This document shows positions 16,237-56,513 of a stretch of 64,000 nucleotides of DNA, piece by piece. The notes beneath the pieces were generated by a model. It was given only the letters and a program-made list of their open reading frames with translations. It was not told where the DNA came from and did no database searches. Each line of letters opens with the position of its first letter. The stretch's first letter is position 1. Source of the DNA: Sediminibacterium sp. (GTDB lineage: Bacteria > Bacteroidota > Bacteroidia > Chitinophagales > Chitinophagaceae); assembly GCA_017537025.1 (NCBI GenBank), contig JAFWCB010000005.1:248001-312000 (forward strand), given 5' to 3'. The position numbers were made by a program, and so were the translations under genes.

Positions 16237-17619
16237 TTATTTCCCGATACAAAACTTACTAAAAATAAAATCAAGTTGATCTTCGTGTGTGATGGTACCC
16301 GTAATCGTTCCTAAATAATGCAATGCCTGCCGTATGTCCAACGCTAATAAATCGCCGGGTATTTCATTATCCAAACCGGTATGAATATCCTTTAAGCTTT
16401 GTTGTAGCTGTTGCAAAGCTGCATGATGCCTAGCATTCGTTACAATGGTGCTTTCCGTATATATATCCCCTGAAACAGTGTGTTGCAGCAGGGCAGTTTT
16501 TAAGGACTCAATACCGGTTTTATCGCGAGCAGAAATAAACAAACAATCTGCTATTCTATGCAAAACAACTTGCTGATCTTCTGTACAACTATCTGCTTTA
16601 TTCGCAACAAGCATATATGAAATATTTTCTTTTTGTAATTGAGCAATATCTGCCTGTAATATTTCCGGTGTAGTAGTGGAAGCATCAAATAAATAAATAA
16701 CCAACTGGGCACTTCGCATTTTTTCTAAACTTTTCGATACCCCAATTTCTTCAATAATATCTGCCGTATGCTCACGTATACCCGCCGTATCTATCAGCCT
16801 AAATAATACCCCACCAATATTCAATACTTCTTCAATAGTATCCCTGGTTGTTCCGGCGATATCACTTACAATCGCTCGGTTTTCATTTAATAGTGTATTT
16901 AATAAAGTAGACTTACCCGCATTCGGTTTACCGATTATTGCTACCTGTACGCCCTCTTTAATTACATTACCTAACTTAAAAGAATCGATCAATTGTTGAA
17001 CCGCCTGCTGTAATTCCACAATGAGTTTTCGAAATGCTGAACGATCTGCAAATGCCACATCTTCCTGTGAAAAATCCAACTCTAATTCTATCAACGCAGA
17101 AAACCGGATCAGCGATTCCCTTAGCTGTGCCAAATCGGAAGAGAAACCTCCTTTCATGGTGTGTAGCGCAGCTCGCTTACTGGCTTCTGTATTACTGGCA
17201 ATTAAATCGGCAACTGCTTCTGCCTGCGCCAAATCTAGCTTTCCTTTTAAAAAAGCACGTTGTGTAAACTCCCCGGGTTTTGCCAATCGCACACCTCGCT
17301 CGGTAATGGCTTCTATAATTTGTTGTTGAATAAAGGGCGAACCGTGACAACTAATTTCAATTACATCTTCCCCGGTATAAGATTTGGGAGATTTATACAA
17401 GGAGAGCACCACTTCATCAAGTACCTGCTCTCCTTTTTTTAATAAGCCAACATGAATGGTATGCGATTTTTGCTCGTGCAAATTTTTGGATGCAAACAAT
17501 TCATTCACTACATCAAAAGTTTTAGCACCACTTACTCTTATCACGCCAATTGCCCCAATACCCGGTGCTGTAGCTAATGCTACGATCGTATCATCCCATC
17601 CCATGAATTGGAAACTCAT
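16237..17619 (-). CDS. mnmE: tRNA uridine-5-carboxymethylaminomethyl modification GTPase MnmE
   Basis: The protein has 460 residues, the usual length. The N-terminal tetrahydrofolate-binding domain (DDTIVALATAPGIGAIGVIRVSG), a helical domain and an inserted G domain are all present: G1 GKPNAGKST, G2 TTRDT, G3 DTAG, G4 NKAD. The C-terminus is the family signature CIGK, whose Cys is needed for modification. With MnmG it installs the (carboxymethyl)aminomethyl group on U34 of certain tRNAs. The start at 17619 is preferred over the inner Met (MGWDD) because a TAnnTTTG box lies exactly 4 nt before it. The gene begins 12 nt after tonB stops, so readthrough from tonB is also possible. Confidence 0.96.
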   Translation of the reverse strand: MSFQFMGWDDTIVALATAPGIGAIGVIRVSGAKTFDVVNELFASKNLHEQKSHTIHVGLLKKGEQVLDEVVLSLYKSPKSYTGEDVIEISCHGSPFIQQQIIEAITERGVRLAKPGEFTQRAFLKGKLDLAQAEAVADLIASNTEASKRAALHTMKGGFSSDLAQLRESLIRFSALIELELDFSQEDVAFADRSAFRKLIVELQQAVQQLIDSFKLGNVIKEGVQVAIIGKPNAGKSTLLNTLLNENRAIVSDIAGTTRDTIEEVLNIGGVLFRLIDTAGIREHTADIIEEIGVSKSLEKMRSAQLVIYLFDASTTTPEILQADIAQLQKENISYMLVANKADSCTEDQQVVLHRIADCLFISARDKTGIESLKTALLQHTVSGDIYTESTIVTNARHHAALQQLQQSLKDIHTGLDNEIPGDLLALDIRQALHYLGTITGTITHEDQLDFIFSKFCIGK

Positions 17620-17623
17620 GCAA

Positions 17624-17631
17624 CAAAGGTA
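17624..17631 (-). promoter_or_regulatory. -7 box 4 nt before the mnmE start (predicted leaderless)
   Basis: The minus strand reads TACCTTTG, then 4 nt, then ATG. The expected transcription start therefore falls at or next to the A of the start codon. The box abuts the tonB stop codon. No clear -33 TTTG is visible. Confidence 0.5.
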
Positions 17632-41854: not shown

Positions 41855-42781
41855 TTATTCCTCTTTTATACTACCATTTCTTTTGTGAAAAGCCATTTTT
41901 GCTGGTGCTAGAAAAGCTCTTCTAAAAATGAGTTGCCCACGTTCTAAACTCATGAAATTCATGAATCCGGTTCCTAAGCCAGCTGCATTTTCTTTTAATA
42001 TATAATACAATGGCCGTGCCAAAGGGTATTCGCCATATGTAATGGTTGCTTGCGAGGGTTTTGCAAAAAGTCCTTTTTCCAAACAAGCGGTACATGCTAC
42101 ACGAGCCAGTCTTATTTTTTTAAGATATGCTCGCTGTACAGGATCATAGGAATCGCCTATCCAGCTTAGTCCTACAAAACCAATTACATCTGCCCTTTTA
42201 GATACCAAATCAATGACCTCACTACTATTGTTTACCGCAGCAACATTCGACCCGAATGCAGCTCCTTTCAATATACTATCCTGTAAAAACCGAACCGTAC
42301 TAGTAGCCGATTTCCCATCCATTACCGCAATGATACTATTTCTTCCGCCCAATATATCTCTCAATTTTTCTATCGTAAAAATGCTGTCTTTTGCTTCATT
42401 ATTTACGATAACTGCCACCGCATCATACGCCAAAATTCCATATTGGGGCTTGTAAGATAAGGCGGATTTATAAGATTCTGCTTCTTTTTCGGTTAATCCT
42501 TTGGCAACTATGATCATTCGGGTGCTATCTTTTTGTAAATCTCTAAAACAAGCAGCTTCCGATTTATAACTAACCTGAATATTTGCCTTTGGAAAAGATG
42601 CCTTGTGCACCCTTATTTGCTCTTCTATTACTGGTTTAAAACTCTCATCAACCGAAATGTTAATATTACCCGTTTCAGGGGTATCTCTTGTATCGTTTTT
42701 TTTACTCGCATCACCACAAGCAATTGCTGTAGCTAATACAAAAAACAATAACATTTCTCTCACACAAAAACCCGTTCTCAT
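41855..42781 (-). CDS. PstS-like substrate-binding lipoprotein
   Basis: The protein has 308 residues with lipobox Cys22 (TAIAC). The mature part resembles the PstS/phosphate-type periplasmic binding fold (NINISVDESFKPVIEEQI at the start, FQASFP-like KASFPKANIQVSY, then AVAVIVNNEAKDSIFTIEKLRDIL, and SSEVIDLVSKRADVIGFVGLSWIG). No pstC, pstA, pstB or phoU is adjacent, so phosphate import is doubtful and the ligand unknown. Its ATG overlaps the preceding stop codon by one base (TAATG), a sign of translational coupling with the 77-residue membrane protein. Confidence 0.8.
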   Translation of the reverse strand: MRTGFCVREMLLFFVLATAIACGDASKKNDTRDTPETGNINISVDESFKPVIEEQIRVHKASFPKANIQVSYKSEAACFRDLQKDSTRMIIVAKGLTEKEAESYKSALSYKPQYGILAYDAVAVIVNNEAKDSIFTIEKLRDILGGRNSIIAVMDGKSATSTVRFLQDSILKGAAFGSNVAAVNNSSEVIDLVSKRADVIGFVGLSWIGDSYDPVQRAYLKKIRLARVACTACLEKGLFAKPSQATITYGEYPLARPLYYILKENAAGLGTGFMNFMSLERGQLIFRRAFLAPAKMAFHKRNGSIKEE

Positions 42782-43014
42782 TAGTAATCTTGTTTTATCC
42801 CTCGGTATAAACGAAATGCACCATACAACAAACAGATACCGCCAAAACCGTATTTATAAAGCGGCTCTTCTGTAAATACTAAATTCAACCCTAGCCTGTC
42901 AACACTCATTACACCGATACCTACTAATACAAAAAGTATAGCCATCGTAATGTCGTATACTTTCCTAAAGTTGGTATATCCCTTTCTACTTTGTTCTCTA
43001 AACTTGTTCTCCAT
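42781..43014 (-). CDS. Small two-helix membrane protein
   Basis: The protein has 77 residues: a basic N-terminus, one membrane helix (about 21-39), a short loop with acidic residues and a second helix (about 53-70), and a charged tail. I do not recognise a family. Its stop overlaps the start of the PstS-like gene, which places it at the head of a three-gene operon (membrane protein, PstS-like, TPR protein). The function is unknown; a membrane anchor or accessory for the two periplasmic proteins is inference. Confidence 0.65.
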   Translation of the reverse strand: MENKFREQSRKGYTNFRKVYDITMAILFVLVGIGVMSVDRLGLNLVFTEEPLYKYGFGGICLLYGAFRLYRGIKQDY

Positions 43015-43130
43015 AATTTCAAGATGGGCAATTTAGTAAATATTTTTACTGTGATGCAGCAATTTTTAAATTCCATAATATCCATCTCTCAAAACTAATT
43101 GTTGTTAGCGTATTCCTTCACCCATAACAG

Positions 43131-43138
43131 TATCTTTG
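43131..43138 (+). promoter_or_regulatory. -7 box 4 nt before the phosphatase start (predicted leaderless)
   Basis: TATCTTTG, then 4 nt (CAGC), then ATG at 43143. The same 12 nt TATCTTTGCAG plus one base precedes the rlmN start at 55470. The transcription start should coincide with the start codon. Confidence 0.55.
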
Positions 43139-43142
43139 CAGC

Positions 43143-43613
43143 ATGAAAATTTTAATGGTTTGCTTGGGTAATATTTGTAGAAGTCCGCTAGCTGAGGGGG
43201 TTTTGCAAACGTTGGCGAAAACAAGGGGGTTGAATTGGGAGGTAGCCAGTGCAGGTACTGCCGGATACCATGTGGGAGAGCCCCCGCACAAATTATCTCA
43301 AAAAGTAGCCAAGCTTAACGGAATTGATATTAGCGAACAACGTTGCCGAAAATTTAGCAGAAACGATTTTGCTTATTACGATCAGATTCTGGTAATGGAT
43401 CAACAAAATTTAGCCGAAGTATTAGCCTTAGCACCAGACCCTAATGCCGCTTCTAAAGTATCTTTGCTATTAGATGCACTTTACCCTGGAGAAAACAGAG
43501 AAGTACCCGACCCTTGGTACGGGGAAGAAGATGGATATCATGAAGTTTTTGCATTAATAACCCGAGCATGTGAGGCGATAATCAAAAGCCAGTGTGTGGT
43601 GGACAGTGAGTAG
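43143..43613 (+). CDS. Low-molecular-weight protein-tyrosine phosphatase
   Basis: The protein has 156 residues. The phosphate-binding loop CLGNICRS gives nucleophile Cys7 and Arg13, and the general acid Asp sits in VPDPWYG near residue 120. It removes phosphate from protein tyrosines, or acts on arginine-phosphate in some relatives; the substrate is not readable. It is the first gene before hisS with 49 nt between them, a gap that contains AGTGAGTAGTG repeats. The start at 43143 is fixed by the family N-terminus (MKILMVCLGN). Confidence 0.95.
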   Translation: MKILMVCLGNICRSPLAEGVLQTLAKTRGLNWEVASAGTAGYHVGEPPHKLSQKVAKLNGIDISEQRCRKFSRNDFAYYDQILVMDQQNLAEVLALAPDPNAASKVSLLLDALYPGENREVPDPWYGEEDGYHEVFALITRACEAIIKSQCVVDSE

Positions 43614-50344: not shown

Positions 50345-50980
50345 CTATACAATGTTTTCTCTGATGGCTTTAGCTACAGCTTCGCTTACCGTATGTACAT
50401 GTAGCTTATGATAGATATTCCGAATATGGAAATTTACCGTATGGTAACTAATATTCAATTCGTCTGAGATCATTTTATAACTTAAGCCCTCTACTAAAAA
50501 AGACAATACCTTTTTTTCTTTCTCACTCAATGCATAAGCCGAAGCCCTTGCCTCTTCTTTATTTCTGAAAAAAAACAGCACTTTACTAGCAATTTCCGGA
50601 GTCATAGGCGCCCCACCCCTATATATATCCTGTATGGCTTCCAATAATTTTTCCGGGGATGTTTTCTTGAGTAAATACCCGGTTGCACCTGCCATTATCG
50701 ACTCAAATATTTTATCGTCTTTATCAAATACCGTTTGCATTAATACCGGCAAATAGGGGAATTCTCGTTTTATTTCTTTCACCGCATCAATACCATTAAC
50801 CGCGGGCAATCCAATATCCATTATTACCACATCAGGTTCGGAGATAACTATTTTTTTAATCACATCTGTTGCATTATCAAACGCTCCGGCACAAGTAAAC
50901 CCATCTGCAGTATTTAATAACAGTTGTAGGCCTTTAAGCCTTACCGTATCATCTTCAAAAATCGCAACTTTTATGCGCAT
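50345..50980 (-). CDS. NarL/LuxR-type response regulator
   Basis: The protein has 211 residues. The receiver domain has the acidic pair Asp10-Asp11, phospho-acceptor Asp55 (VVIMDIGLP), Thr/Ser and Lys switch residues (KKTSPEK). A LuxR-type helix-turn-helix follows at about 145-205 (LSEKEKKVLSFLVEGLSYKMISDEL, HTVNFHIRNIYHKL in pieces). It is the DNA-binding partner of the histidine kinase encoded 54 nt upstream. A TAnnTTTG box 4 nt before the start codon suggests a separate leaderless transcript in addition to readthrough. The three envelope genes at 46.8-50.3 kb are the nearest possible targets (inference). Confidence 0.95.
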   Translation of the reverse strand: MRIKVAIFEDDTVRLKGLQLLLNTADGFTCAGAFDNATDVIKKIVISEPDVVIMDIGLPAVNGIDAVKEIKREFPYLPVLMQTVFDKDDKIFESIMAGATGYLLKKTSPEKLLEAIQDIYRGGAPMTPEIASKVLFFFRNKEEARASAYALSEKEKKVLSFLVEGLSYKMISDELNISYHTVNFHIRNIYHKLHVHTVSEAVAKAIRENIV

Positions 50981-50984
50981 ACAG

Positions 50985-50992
50985 CAAACTTA
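50985..50992 (-). promoter_or_regulatory. -7 box 4 nt before the response-regulator start (predicted leaderless)
   Basis: The minus strand reads TAAGTTTG, then 4 nt, then ATG at 50980. It lies in the 54-nt gap after the kinase gene. Confidence 0.5.
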
Positions 50993-51034: not shown

Positions 51035-54025
51035 CTATAGCCCTATTTCTACCCAAATGCGGGTGCCTTCATTGGGGTTAGTTGTAATCGATAGCTTACC
51101 CTTTAATTTATTTATTCTTTCCTGCATGGCCGATAAGCCATGCCCTTTCGAAACCGTTTCTATCTCAAACCCTTTTCCTTCATCGGTTATCGAAAAAAAT
51201 AATTTCGCATTTTTAGCGGAGAAGGAAATGGATATACGTGGCGAATTTGAATATTTTACTGCGTTGTTTACAGCCTCTTTTACAACCATAAAAATGGTAT
51301 TTCTTTGCTCTTGTTGCAGTTTTATTTTCTTCACATTTTCATCTGTAAAAAAAATCAATTCCATTTTTTTAAGGGATGTAGCTTCTACCGAAAAAACCTG
51401 TAGCTTTTGAAGCAATTGCTCCATCGAATCGTTTTTATGATGCAGGCCCCATACTATTTCATGCATACTATCCTGCATTTGCTGACTAATGGTTTTAATT
51501 TTTTGAATGATTGATTTGACTTCGGCAGCAGTATGATCAATTTTCAGGTTAGCTACTTCGCTGTATAAGCTAATAGTGCTTAATGCTGAGCCAACATCAT
51601 CGTGTAAATCATTAGCAATTTTATTTCTTATTTCATACATGTGGTTAATTTGACTTATACGAAAACGGATATAAGCGTATATGGCTGCGCAGATAAGCGC
51701 CGCGCATAAAACATAAAACCACCAGGTCATATAAAAAGGGGCACTAATTTGAATGCTAATTGATTTTATTACAGGATTAAAAATACCGTCTGTATTAGCT
51801 GCTTTTATATTGAAATGATAAATACCTGCTTTAAGGTTTGCATAACGTGCAAACCCGGGATTTATAGCCGGCAGCCAGTTTTTATCAATCCCCTGTAATT
51901 GATATTGCAATTGTACATTTTCAGGTTCATATAGATTGATACCAATAAAATTAAATGAAATGGTATTCGATTGATAATCTAGTTTCAAATTTGCACCGGT
52001 ATCAAGGTTACTTTTCTCGTATACCTCATCATTAACTTTTATCCCGGTAAACTGAATTTGGGGTACAATCACATCTTCCTTAATAGTGGACGGATAAAAG
52101 GCATTAATTCCATTTACACCGCTAAACCATAGTTCTCCATCAGGTGTTTGCAAAAAACCGTTGGTATTAAATTCATTGGATTGTAATCCGTCTTTACTCG
52201 TATAGTTCCTGCATTTACCCGATTGTAGCGAAAACCGGCAAAGCCCATTGTTTGTGCTCAACCACAAATTATTATTTTTATCGGCTGCAATTCCATAAAT
52301 ACAATTATCTGGTAAGCCATTTGCAACTGTTATTACCTGATAGGTAAAATTTGAAGGGTTTATTTTGTAAAGGCCGTTATTTGTACCCATCCACAAAATA
52401 GAATCCGTTTCATGAAAACATTTGATAATACCTGCATTGTTTAATTTATACACTATGCAAGCATTATTAACCGATTGATATACCGTTAAATTTTCCGGGG
52501 TTGAATTTACATATACCCTTCCTTTCTTGTCTTCAAAAAAAGTGCTTCTTTCCCCAATGCATTTACTAAATTTTGTTCGCTGAAATTCGAAACTGCCATT
52601 TTTTTCTATCACTTCTTTTATAAAACCATCTCCACAAGTAAAAAAGAGTTTACCTGTTTTCGATTGTAGCATGGAGCAGTAGGAACTAGAAGTATCTACA
52701 ATATCAAATCGTTTTTTAGATGAATTGTATAGAAAGAGGTAATCTTCCATCAACCAAAGACGCCCCTTAGCATCGAAAGCAATATTATTAGTAGTAGAAA
52801 AGTTTCTGGCATTATTCAACTTTTTAAATTGCCGGATGGGCTGCTTTTGTGCATTCAATACATATACTTCTCCATTCATTGCCCCACACCAAACATTCCC
52901 TTGCTTATCGCGAGCCATACATCGAATAAAATTATCCATATTGAGCTTTTCTGCTTCGGGCCTGCTGAGATAATGAATAAATTTTTTTTGAAATAGATTG
53001 GCATAATCGATACCTTTTCCAAATACACCCAGCCAAATATTCTGATCATCATCAATAAGCATGGTTTCAGAAATATTATTATAAGAAAGGGATGCATTAT
53101 CACTTACATTCGCCTGCCAGTGTTCAAGAAATTTCTTCGTAGCAATATCGAAAAGCCAGAGGCCAGAATTGGTACTAGTAATCCATAATTTATCTTCATG
53201 ATAATATAAAATTGAGAATCCCGTTCTACCCCAAAAATTATCCGGTGCATAAGTAGTAAATTTCCCTGTATGAAGGTTGAGTAAATCCATTCCCTTGATT
53301 GAAATAAGCCATACCATACTATCATTCTGCTGATACATTTGCTTACTGGTTGCATCGAATAGTTTTGATAAATGATTACCGGTTGAAAAAAAAGTTTTTA
53401 TTATTTGCGTATTCGTCTGCTTTTCCAAAATAATAAGTCCATTCTTTTTTGAATAACCCAATACCCACCGTTTTATTGTTTTGGGTTTTACAATATTGTA
53501 CAGCATTTGATATGCTGTTTGGGGATTAATTTTTTGAAAGGTTTTAGAATGTGTATGGAATAGGGTAAAATCCTCGATCAATCCTATCATCATCGTACTG
53601 TCATTTAACCATTCGATCAACCGAGTTGGTATAGAAGAAAGTTCACCGGATAAACTTTTAATAAAGTGAATCTTATTGAGTGATCGTTGATAATAGCAAA
53701 GTGATTTGTTCGTAAAAATCCAAAGATTATTTTTTTTATCCTCTAATATATTATGAATAAAGCTCCCATTAATTTGTACCGAATCTTTATTACCGGTAAG
53801 GTAGTGAACTACATTACTGCCATCAAAACGAGCCAAACCATTATCGGAGCCTACCCATAAAAAGCCTTGTGAATCTTTAAAAAATTTTGTTACATGTCCA
53901 ACGGGCAATCCATTATCAACCGTTAAATGCTTAAACGATAAATGGTATGGTTGTGCTTTAGAATAAGCAACAAACAATAGTACCTGAAGCAGTAAAAAAG
54001 CCAATGCTTTTTTCTTACATTTCAT
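51035..54025 (-). CDS. Propeller-domain sensor histidine kinase
   Basis: The protein has 996 residues: signal peptide (ending SKAQ), then periplasmic two-component-regulator propeller repeats over most of residues 30-680 (FFKDSQGFLWVGSDNGLARF, WMGTNNGLYKINP, NNLWLSTNNGLCRF), a Y_Y_Y beta domain (about 690-760; LQYQLQGIDKNWLP), and a membrane helix (about 768-788). The cytoplasmic kinase core is of the HisKA_3 type with phospho-acceptor His808 (DLHDDVGSALSTI), followed by an ATPase domain (NNAVKYSNSP, ITDEGKGFE, GHGLSAMQERI). Unlike hybrid two-component proteins of glycan loci it has no receiver or AraC domain; the partner is the separate NarL-type regulator 54 nt downstream. The ligand is unknown. 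Confidence 0.95.
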   Translation of the reverse strand: MKCKKKALAFLLLQVLLFVAYSKAQPYHLSFKHLTVDNGLPVGHVTKFFKDSQGFLWVGSDNGLARFDGSNVVHYLTGNKDSVQINGSFIHNILEDKKNNLWIFTNKSLCYYQRSLNKIHFIKSLSGELSSIPTRLIEWLNDSTMMIGLIEDFTLFHTHSKTFQKINPQTAYQMLYNIVKPKTIKRWVLGYSKKNGLIILEKQTNTQIIKTFFSTGNHLSKLFDATSKQMYQQNDSMVWLISIKGMDLLNLHTGKFTTYAPDNFWGRTGFSILYYHEDKLWITSTNSGLWLFDIATKKFLEHWQANVSDNASLSYNNISETMLIDDDQNIWLGVFGKGIDYANLFQKKFIHYLSRPEAEKLNMDNFIRCMARDKQGNVWCGAMNGEVYVLNAQKQPIRQFKKLNNARNFSTTNNIAFDAKGRLWLMEDYLFLYNSSKKRFDIVDTSSSYCSMLQSKTGKLFFTCGDGFIKEVIEKNGSFEFQRTKFSKCIGERSTFFEDKKGRVYVNSTPENLTVYQSVNNACIVYKLNNAGIIKCFHETDSILWMGTNNGLYKINPSNFTYQVITVANGLPDNCIYGIAADKNNNLWLSTNNGLCRFSLQSGKCRNYTSKDGLQSNEFNTNGFLQTPDGELWFSGVNGINAFYPSTIKEDVIVPQIQFTGIKVNDEVYEKSNLDTGANLKLDYQSNTISFNFIGINLYEPENVQLQYQLQGIDKNWLPAINPGFARYANLKAGIYHFNIKAANTDGIFNPVIKSISIQISAPFYMTWWFYVLCAALICAAIYAYIRFRISQINHMYEIRNKIANDLHDDVGSALSTISLYSEVANLKIDHTAAEVKSIIQKIKTISQQMQDSMHEIVWGLHHKNDSMEQLLQKLQVFSVEATSLKKMELIFFTDENVKKIKLQQEQRNTIFMVVKEAVNNAVKYSNSPRISISFSAKNAKLFFSITDEGKGFEIETVSKGHGLSAMQERINKLKGKLSITTNPNEGTRIWVEIGL

Positions 54026-54131: not shown

Positions 54132-55325
54132 TTATAAGCCTTCATAAACCACCGCCGCTCCTTGTCCCACCCCTACACACATGGTTGCCAAGCCATACTT
54201 TGCCTTTCTTCTATTCATTTCGTGTACCAAAGTAGTAGAAATTCGGGCCCCGCTGCACCCAAGAGGATGCCCTAATGCAATAGCACCGCCATTTACATTC
54301 ACTATCGTAGGATCCAAATTCAGATCGCGCATACAAGCTATGCTTTGTGAGGCAAAAGCTTCATTTAATTCTACCAATGATAATTCCTGAGCGCTCAGCC
54401 CTGCTCGTTTTAGGGCTTTCTGTGAGGCCGGCACAGGGCCAATACCCATAATTCGTGGATCTACACCGGCTACGCCCATGCTAACCACCCTGGCAATTGG
54501 TTGTAGGTTGAATAATTTTATCGCCTCTTCACTAGCTAATAATAAGGCCGCAGCACCATCATTTATCCCTGAAGAATTCCCTGCCGTAACGGTTCCGTCT
54601 TTTGCAAATGCAGGTTTTAAAGCTGCCAATTTTTCCAAACTGGTTTCTCTTGGGTGTTCGTCTTTATTAAACCACGTGATCATCCGATCATTAATCATTT
54701 CTATGGGCGATATTTCATCCTCCCATTTTCCCGCCGCTAACGCGGCGGCATATTTCTCCTGTGATGCCAATGCAAAACGATCCTGTTCTTCCCTACTAAT
54801 ATTCCATTCCCTAGCAACATTCTCTGCGGTTTCACCCATACTATAAGGATGATACATTTCCGCTAGTTTTTTATTGGTAAATCGCCACCCGATAGTAGTG
54901 TCGAAGGTCTCCACCTTTCTACTCCATGCCCCATCGGCTTTTGCCGTTACAAAAGGAGCTCTCGTCATACTCTCTACCCCTCCGGCGATATAAAGCATCC
55001 CTTCTTTACAAATGATCGACCTGGCAGCATCCATAATCGCTTGTAAGCCACTGGCACATAAGCGATTCACCGTATTACCACCAACGCTTATAGGTAAGCC
55101 GGCTAATAAAGCACTCATACGGGCAACATCTCTATTATCTTCTCCAGCCTGATTAGCAGCTCCCGCAATTACATCCTCAATAGCATTAGGATCTATCGAT
55201 TCATTTCGTTTTAGTAAGGTTTGAATTACATGGGCTAATAAATCATCCGGACGAATACTACTCAATCTTCCACCGTACCTGCCTATTGGCGTGCGTACAG
55301 CATCTATTACATAACAAGCGTTCAT
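54132..55325 (-). CDS. Thiolase (acetyl-CoA acyltransferase; 3-oxoadipyl-CoA thiolase-like)
   Basis: The protein has 397 residues. Nucleophile Cys90 is in VNRLCASGLQ, the His in NGGAIALGHPLGCSGAR and the second Cys in ATMCVGVGQG. The N-terminal half (CANQAGEDNRDVARM-like AANQAGEDNRDVARM and FDTTIGWRFTNKK) resembles the PcaF/PaaJ branch that cleaves 3-oxoadipyl-CoA to succinyl-CoA and acetyl-CoA. No other phenylacetate or beta-ketoadipate genes are near, so fatty-acid breakdown or acetoacetyl-CoA use is also possible. It is divergent from rlmN, and its start is 4 nt after a TAnnTTTG box. Confidence 0.93.
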   Translation of the reverse strand: MNACYVIDAVRTPIGRYGGRLSSIRPDDLLAHVIQTLLKRNESIDPNAIEDVIAGAANQAGEDNRDVARMSALLAGLPISVGGNTVNRLCASGLQAIMDAARSIICKEGMLYIAGGVESMTRAPFVTAKADGAWSRKVETFDTTIGWRFTNKKLAEMYHPYSMGETAENVAREWNISREEQDRFALASQEKYAAALAAGKWEDEISPIEMINDRMITWFNKDEHPRETSLEKLAALKPAFAKDGTVTAGNSSGINDGAAALLLASEEAIKLFNLQPIARVVSMGVAGVDPRIMGIGPVPASQKALKRAGLSAQELSLVELNEAFASQSIACMRDLNLDPTIVNVNGGAIALGHPLGCSGARISTTLVHEMNRRKAKYGLATMCVGVGQGAAVVYEGL

Positions 55326-55329
55326 AGGG

Positions 55330-55337
55330 CAAAGATA
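55330..55337 (-). promoter_or_regulatory. -7 box 4 nt before the thiolase start (predicted leaderless)
   Basis: The minus strand reads TATCTTTG, then CCCT, then ATG at 55325. The 8-mer is identical to the ones before rlmN and the LMW phosphatase. Confidence 0.55.
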
Positions 55338-55457
55338 CAGTTTAGACCGAGAGTCGGTAAGTCCGGGAGTCCGTAAGCCAGCATTAATTATCTAAATATA
55401 TACGCTATAAACCTACACCACCTATTCCCTATAACCTTTAACCTCCTACCTATTCCG

Positions 55458-55465
55458 TATCTTTG
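55458..55465 (+). promoter_or_regulatory. -7 box 4 nt before the rlmN start (predicted leaderless)
   Basis: TATCTTTG, then CAGA, then ATG at 55470. The context TATCTTTGCAG is identical to that at 43131. The region 55422-55434 upstream holds CCTATTCCCTATA, also found at 38777. Confidence 0.55.
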
Positions 55466-55469
55466 CAGA

Positions 55470-56513
55470 ATGAACAGTTCTTTACCAAATATCAGGCACT
55501 TGAGCACCGAAGATCTTACGACCTATTTCGAACAAATAGGAGAAAAGAAGTTCCGCTTGCAACAAGTGCAAGAATGGCTTTGGCAAAAACATGCCCATAG
55601 CTTCGAGGCTATGAGTAATTTAAGTAAAGAATTAAGAAATAAACTGAGTACCGATTTCAGCTTACCCGCCCTAAAAGTGGATGCTACCCAGTTCAGTAGC
55701 GATGGCACTATTAAAACCAGATTTAAAACCTACGATAATCATTTGATTGAAGGTGTACTCATTCCTACCGAAGATCGCAAAACAGCCTGTGTATCTTCAC
55801 AAATTGGCTGTAGCCTCAGCTGTAAATTCTGCGCCACTGGTTATATGGACCGCAAAAGAAATTTAACATTCGACGAAATCGTAGATCAAGTAGTACTCAT
55901 CAACAAACAAAGTGAAGAAACTTACCAAAAAAAACTAAGCAATATCGTTTTCATGGGTATGGGTGAGCCCTTACTCAATTATAATAATGTACTAAAAGCC
56001 ATCGAGCGCATTTCAGCAGAAGATGGTTTGTTTATGAGCGCGCGTCGTATTACCGTTTCCACCGCCGGTGTTGCCAAACAAATAAAGAAATTAGGAGATG
56101 ATGGTGTACGATTTAAACTGGCGCTATCGTTACACGCTGCTAATGATGCCAAGCGAAATGAAATAATGCCTATCAATGAAACGAATAATATTAAAGTATT
56201 AATCGACGCCTTAAATTATTTCTATAAAAAAACAGGCAACGAAATAACGCTCGAATATATCCTCTTTAAAAATTTAAATGATTCTCCAAAAGATGCCGAA
56301 GAACTTACTAAAATTTATCGGCAAGTACCTGCGGATCTGATTAATATCATTGAATACAATAGCATCGACGCTTTTAAGTTTACAAAACCGGAAGAGGAAG
56401 ATGTGCAACAGTTCATGAATATTTTAGCCAATAATAAAGTGAATGCTCGCTTGCGCAGAAGCAGGGGTAAAGATATTGATGCTGCATGCGGACAATTAGC
56501 GAATAAGGGGTAA
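55470..56513 (+). CDS. rlmN: 23S rRNA (adenine-C2)-methyltransferase RlmN
   Basis: The protein has 347 residues. The radical-SAM cluster motif CSLSCKFC gives Cys114, Cys118 and Cys121; the family segments FMGMGEPLLNY, ALSLHAAND and LEYILFKNLND follow, and the C-terminal catalytic Cys is in DIDAACGQLA. It methylates A2503 of 23S rRNA and A37 of some tRNAs. The start at 55470 fits the family length and follows a promoter box by 4 nt. Confidence 0.96.
   Translation: MNSSLPNIRHLSTEDLTTYFEQIGEKKFRLQQVQEWLWQKHAHSFEAMSNLSKELRNKLSTDFSLPALKVDATQFSSDGTIKTRFKTYDNHLIEGVLIPTEDRKTACVSSQIGCSLSCKFCATGYMDRKRNLTFDEIVDQVVLINKQSEETYQKKLSNIVFMGMGEPLLNYNNVLKAIERISAEDGLFMSARRITVSTAGVAKQIKKLGDDGVRFKLALSLHAANDAKRNEIMPINETNNIKVLIDALNYFYKKTGNEITLEYILFKNLNDSPKDAEELTKIYRQVPADLINIIEYNSIDAFKFTKPEEEDVQQFMNILANNKVNARLRRSRGKDIDAACGQLANKG

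Follow-up and report, generated by a model that had tools for sequence, protein, structure and literature searches.

The rlmN gene and a thiolase gene diverge from each other in the window (the whole 64 kb stretch of DNA analysed), and each is preceded on its own strand by a TAnnTTTG box that is separated from the ATG by exactly 4 nt (Table 1). The same arrangement, written N4 below with other gaps between box and start codon numbered likewise, was found before three further genes, those for a low-molecular-weight (LMW) protein-tyrosine phosphatase, the GTPase MnmE and a LuxR-type response regulator. The window covers C19:248001-312000 in the host assembly (3.19 Mb in 29 contigs), which represents a member of the Chitinophagaceae near Sediminibacterium, and the closest matches of its rlmN in named genomes, among the best 80 of at least 589 loci, were from Sediminibacterium and other Chitinophagaceae.

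Table 1. Genes of the window with a box 4 nt before the ATG, their predicted −7 boxes and the corresponding pattern matches (window numbering).
Feature	Position	Strand	Details
rlmN, predicted −7 box TATCTTTG	55458..55465	+	4 nt before ATG; predicted transcription start 55470
rlmN, pattern match	55458-55472	+	exact TANNTTTGNNNNATG, ends in ATG of long ORF
rlmN, dual-specificity 23S rRNA/tRNA methyltransferase	55470..56513	+	NCBIfam TIGR00048, 385.3 bits (cut-off 290)
Thiolase, predicted −7 box TATCTTTG	55330..55337	−	4 nt before ATG
Thiolase, pattern match	55323-55337	−	exact TANNTTTGNNNNATG, ends in ATG of long ORF
Thiolase, acetyl-CoA C-acyltransferase family, divergent from rlmN	54132..55325	−	NCBIfam TIGR01930 above cut-off
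LMW phosphatase, predicted −7 box TATCTTTG	43131..43138	+	4 nt before ATG
LMW phosphatase, pattern match	43131-43145	+	exact TANNTTTGNNNNATG, ends in ATG of long ORF
LMW protein-tyrosine phosphatase	43143..43613	+	Pfam PF01451
mnmE, predicted −7 box TACCTTTG	17624..17631	−	4 nt before first ATG
mnmE, pattern match	17617-17631	−	exact TANNTTTGNNNNATG, ends in ATG of long ORF
mnmE, tRNA U34 modification GTPase	16237..17619	−	NCBIfam NF003661 above cut-off
Response regulator, predicted −7 box TAAGTTTG	50985..50992	−	4 nt before ATG
Response regulator, pattern match	50978-50992	−	exact TANNTTTGNNNNATG, ends in ATG of long ORF
LuxR-type response regulator	50345..50980	−	Pfam PF00072 + PF00196

Seven matches to the pattern were present in the window, compared with a mean of 1.46 and a largest value of 5 in 100 dinucleotide shuffles. 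A preliminary description had listed the five genes of Table 1 and considered five exact matches unlikely to arise by chance; all five were recovered on their strands, and the shuffles agree with that judgement. Its remark that the genes are mostly RNA- or signal-related holds for four of them and fails for the thiolase. TAnnTTTG is exact at all five, and the preferred form TAHHTTTG fits four; the box of the response regulator has a G at the fourth position, which is unusual for a −7 element. The two further matches, at 43083-43097 (−) and 53360-53374 (+), do not stand at the start of a called gene. The former opens an ORF of 53 amino acids and lies ∼70 nt upstream of, and with its ORF out of frame with, a membrane-protein-like ORF of 77 amino acids (42781-43014, −) that is divergent from the LMW phosphatase gene; it may be the ordinary promoter of this ORF. 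Genes with N4 were denser in the window (5 of 52 genes) than in the rest of the sample described below (22 of 998).

The gap between box and start codon was counted in a sample of 1.264 Mb (∼40% of the host genome) comprising the window and 1.2 Mb more, in which 1050 genes were called with a simple home-made codon-score caller; exact boxes were counted per gap. For gaps of 0–8 nt before the first ATG, the counts among 1047 sample genes were 0, 1, 2, 5, 26, 7, 2, 0 and 3. The profile is two-humped: beyond the peak at N4 it passes through a partial dip at N7–N12 (0–4 genes per gap, ten in the six gaps) to a broad hump at N13–N28 (65 genes in sixteen gaps), which represents ordinary leadered genes. 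The dip suggests that leaders of ∼3–8 nt are rarer than either class. When the starts chosen by the gene model were used, N4 was found in 24 of 1050 genes (21 of 998 with the window left out) versus a mean of 0.55 at gap 4 for 29 permuted control motifs, whose means stayed at or below 1.03 throughout gaps 0–40, with 5 as the highest single count over the same range. With one mismatch allowed the sample contained 44 genes at N4 and 18 at N5 over a background of 9.8, so that, by arithmetic from these counts, perhaps ∼7% of genes carry a box at N4–N5. Over the whole genome the raw pattern showed a mild excess only (98 matches versus 76 for the reversed pattern) because many raw matches lie away from gene starts; these counts were too diluted to be decisive and the gene-start profile was therefore used. 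A gap profile pooled over named loci also peaked at N4 (22 of 411 genes in Chitinophagia, for example), and was set aside because rlmN itself dominates it and one locus was counted twice. A genome-wide count had been proposed in the preliminary description, with a missing N4 enrichment named as the opposing outcome; on the ∼40% sample the N4 peak is sharp. A promoter core placed such that the predicted +1 falls on the start codon is present in the five window genes and in 26 of the 1047 sample genes (exact N4). Judged by sequence, a few percent of the host genes thus appear to have a promoter so near the start codon that the mRNA should begin there.

N4 and leadered genes of the host share one extended box: the box G is followed by C in 15 of 27 N4 genes and in 43 of 74 leadered boxes, and the next position is A in 14 of 27 and 32 of 74, respectively. 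In the probable promoters of Flavobacterium johnsoniae, as given in the accessible part of the report, the G of the −7 element is at −5 and the distance from box to start is 4–5 nt (PMC6847099), in agreement with the geometry assumed in the preliminary description. Given this distance in mapped Bacteroidota promoters, N4 would therefore put +1 on the A of the ATG. We propose that each TAnnTTTG box acts as the −7 element of a primary (sigma-ABfr-type) Bacteroidota promoter and that RNA polymerase would initiate 5 nt past the box G, so that a gap of 4 nt would make the A of the start codon +1; N4 would then yield a leaderless mRNA and N5–N6 an mRNA with a leader of 1–2 nt, and the ribosome, lacking contacts upstream, would have to recognize a 5′-terminal AUG or, in some relatives, GUG. 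Recognition of this kind has been described for leaderless mRNAs elsewhere. The prediction that the mRNA begins at or next to the start codon, made in the preliminary description, gains support from the N4 peak together with the promoter geometry, and we infer that these boxes are promoters in use, with +1 at the position given and translation from the 5′ end. No clear column corresponding to a −33 element was seen in the 27 N4 genes of the host or in 23 rlmN loci of the family at N4, in which no column from −60 to −13 exceeded 0.41 bits; in the same 23 loci the C at −4 was invariant and positions −10 and −9 carried 1.2–1.3 bits, the six fixed letters of the box being invariant through the choice of rows. 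The predicted structure of the first 45 nt did not distinguish N4 genes (mean −3.5 kcal/mol) from the others (−4.0 kcal/mol; p 0.51).

Conservation was read gene by gene in 40 genomes of the family, one per genus and the host included, using the best 30 loci per gene; a locus was scored when an exact box lay 4–6 nt before a start codon that deviated from the aligned position by no more than 10 residues. The arrangement is conserved in rlmN (26 of 30 loci; 25 of 29 without the host), the SpoU methylase (23 of 30; 22 of 29) and the LMW phosphatase (20 of 30; 19 of 29) and partly in mnmE (15 of 30; 14 of 29), in which seven loci had the box at N10–40. It is not conserved in the thiolase or queA (only three of 30 loci and two of 29 without the host in each case) or in the response regulator (four of 30; three of 29; these loci came from 27 genomes and include paralogs). 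Of the five window genes, only rlmN, the LMW phosphatase and, at every second locus, mnmE retain the arrangement in relatives; the thiolase and the response regulator do not. The controls gpsA, gcvT and def, all with leaders in the host, had N4–N6 in zero, two and one of their best 30 family loci and kept the box at N10–40 in 12, 20 and 21, respectively. Of the best 30 loci each, two additional rlmN loci had the box at N7 and three additional SpoU loci at N3 or N7.

A wider set of rlmN genes from named Bacteroidota consisted of the best 80 of at least 589 confirmed loci; as the best-scoring part of a longer list it hardly samples distant Bacteroidota such as the Bacteroidales. Classes were assigned by record title; MAGs that had none were placed by identity. 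Within these best 80, N4–N6 before ATG or GTG was found at 46 loci, distributed as 24 of 27 in Chitinophagia, seven of nine in Sphingobacteriia (five with GTG), five of 11 in Cytophagia, three of seven in Saprospiria, only four of 17 in Flavobacteriia and three of nine unplaced; three more loci had the box at N2–3 or N7–8 and 23 of the 80 had no exact box within reach. A GTG exactly 4 nt after the box marks the rlmN genes of five Sphingobacteriia loci and two others (L085-L089, L104 and L132) as candidates for leaderless GUG starts. By coordinates, the thiolase gene was divergent from and within 600 bp of rlmN at 19 of the best 30 thiolase loci; this neighbourhood (54132-56513 in the window) is conserved, yet the N4 box is kept only by rlmN. 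The genes for the LMW phosphatase and RlmN are ∼12 kb apart in the host, and 16 other genera have them within ∼8 kb.

The leaderless reading depends on the first ATG being the start. It could be that the promoters are real and a later in-frame ATG is used, giving ordinary short leaders of ∼12–15 nt; a second in-frame ATG does exist in the host in mnmE (gap 19), the LMW phosphatase (gap 16) and SpoU (gap 19), and in the latter two genes it lies 12–15 nt past the first and is conserved in both. Codons 2–5 were compared in 20 LMW phosphatase and 24 SpoU orthologs in which a box precedes the aligned ATG by 3–7 nt. In the stretch separating the two ATGs, amino acids are mostly kept while the codons change silently: in the LMW phosphatase codons 2–4 vary mostly at silent positions across the 20 orthologs and Leu4 (20 of 20 rows) is written with five codons, as is Arg2 of SpoU (23 of 24 rows). 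Silent variation of this kind under a conserved protein identifies the first ATG as the true start in both genes. In rlmN no further ATG occurs ahead of the conserved NIRHLS motif, and its start codon is likewise established; in the thiolase and the response regulator the protein alignment begins at residue 1–3. The start is less certain in mnmE, the second ATG of which is 15 nt downstream, and there the later start is still conceivable for the host gene. A peak at exactly N4 is not predicted by later starts either, and as a general account we regard them as quite unlikely.

Still less probable, in our estimate, is that the box acts in the RNA as an element bound by the ribosome or by S1, with the transcript beginning further upstream. 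Binding of S1 has been suggested for AU-rich signals that precede Bacteroidetes starts, according to the part of that report accessible to us (PMC3160421), and 10 of the 27 N4 genes lie ≤60 nt behind a co-directional gene, so that some of them may also be read in a longer transcript. An RNA element would, however, be expected at a single preferred spacing, whereas the same extended box recurs at N13–N28 with a dip between, and the box is the known promoter consensus. A second exact box 12–109 nt upstream was found in none of 35 N4–N6 genes versus 118 of 1010 others, and N4 genes were divergent from their upstream neighbour more often than other genes (14 of 27 versus 236 of 1023), both of which argue for initiation at the box itself. 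Chance or a compositional artefact, which could appeal to the raw whole-genome counts just above those of the reversed pattern, can practically be dismissed in view of the count at gene starts relative to the permuted motifs and of the conservation of the spacing across genera.

Leaderless mRNAs arising from −7 promoter boxes at N4 are thus the explanation that we hold to be very probable, and both the observation and the way it is interpreted hold up as a sequence-based prediction. As to why certain genes keep the spacing, we can only conjecture that a very compact promoter is favoured by selection where a single gene is to be expressed constitutively at a modest level, as would be fitting for RNA-modification enzymes.

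The host N4 set was completed by adding 54 whole-genome pattern matches from outside the sample and window and applying filters of ORF length and codon score, which gave 56 exact-N4 genes (27 from the sample and window and 29 more). In a second genus (G024), with 68 TAHHTTTG matches, the same filters applied to 75 scanned matches left 34 genes. The two sets have 12 ortholog pairs in common versus ∼0.7 expected (56 × 34/∼2650 genes); a 13th BLAST row, SpoU against RlmB, was a paralog and was dropped. The pairs are RlmN, a SpoU methylase, an RlmI-type methylase, TsaE, Fmt, an ABC-F-type ATPase, the LMW phosphatase, an inositol-monophosphatase-family protein, a heptosyltransferase-type protein, a polysaccharide deacetylase, a TPR protein and one protein of uncertain family, where the RlmI-type, ABC-F, phosphatase-family and heptosyltransferase names denote matches below curated cut-offs. 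The N-termini align in 11 of the 12 pairs, the TPR protein being the exception. Further exact-N4 genes of the host encode MnmE, QueA, MnmG, Tgt and Pth, QueE-like and RnpA-like proteins (matches below cut-off) and TilS-like and RluD-type enzymes (BLAST to E. coli proteins).

E. coli K-12 proteins served as queries to assess whether RNA-maturation genes are enriched. In the unbiased sample, for which the query list did not contain RlmN and SpoU (both in the sample and N4), N4–N6 was found in two of 14 RNA genes versus none of 14 controls (p 0.24; p 0.076 versus all sample genes). The whole-genome exact-N4 set of the host was hit by 12 of 39 RNA queries versus three of 47 controls (p 0.003 with paralogs uncollapsed), or ∼9 RNA genes versus one or two controls after paralogs had been collapsed by hand; in G024 the figures were three of 39 versus two of 47 (p 0.41). 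As these tests are mixed and the query list was compiled after part of the annotation had been seen, the enrichment is graded as suggestive only. A further reading, which we offer as speculative and rather improbable, is that genes whose products finish tRNAs and rRNA and make initiator fMet-tRNA have been selected to be leaderless as a means of regulation; the synthesis of these products would thereby be coupled to 5′-AUG initiation, so that translation quality would feed back on RNA maturation. It draws on RlmN, the RlmI-type and SpoU methylases, TsaE and Fmt in two genera and, in the host, also on MnmE, MnmG, Tgt, QueA, the QueE-like, TilS-like and RluD-type enzymes, Pth and the RnpA-like protein. 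Initiation at a 5′ AUG depends on fMet-tRNA and the state of the ribosome, and the coupling, if real, would operate in a phylum that hardly uses Shine–Dalgarno pairing.

Most Bacteroidota genes are translated without Shine–Dalgarno pairing, and the question at stake is therefore how the ribosomes find the starts. Genes that are leaderless across genera would be natural substrates on which to test Bacteroidota initiation at a bare 5′ AUG; they also raise the question of why rlmN and some RNA-modification enzymes take this route, and the N4 spacing aids the annotation of start codons and start sites purely by sequence. That a minority of Bacteroidota mRNAs is leaderless is already in print: in the accessible portions of the respective reports, leaderless mRNAs make up 5.5% of those of 890 CDSs by RNA-seq in F. 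psychrophilum (PMC9723704), ∼3.7% of 5′ UTRs are under 10 nt in B. thetaiotaomicron (PMC7366714) and 87% of the predicted leaders of F. johnsoniae are above 10 nt (PMC6847099). As far as these portions extend, the mapped mRNAs resemble the class predicted here by sequence in their promoter element, minority fraction and lack of a Shine–Dalgarno site; they are reported as a fraction or as a few example genes, whereas the fixed N4 spacing and its conservation at particular genes across genera are features found here. The promoters predicted here share with sigma-ABfr promoters (−7 TAnnTTTG, −33 TTTG) the −7 box and its distance from the start site; the −33 element is not evident here and, from the accessible text, is much less evident in F. 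johnsoniae too (PMC6847099). Zheng et al. (2011), in the part of their article available, followed the same logic, in which a promoter box at a fixed distance (∼10 bp) before the start marks a leaderless gene, and found leaderless genes in one of 37 Bacteroidetes/Chlorobi genomes with a Pribnow-like box, a limitation that they named (PMC3160421); with the Bacteroidota box used here instead, a leaderless class appears. Other reports (PMC5397173, PMC10783764 and PMC12186496), by their accessible parts, concern non-Shine–Dalgarno initiation generally and ribosomes preferring leaderless mRNAs. Conserved leaderlessness of rlmN or RNA-modification genes in the phylum was not found in open-access titles and the openings of abstracts; the phenomenon itself is known, and the gene-specific conservation of the N4–N6 spacing is the part not found in print.

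In the host, N4 boxes on opposite strands also precede another divergent pair, the genes for an RluD-type pseudouridine synthase and lipB (L477, G000:C6:297292-297343); their start codons are 46 bp apart, which would place the two predicted promoters back to back.
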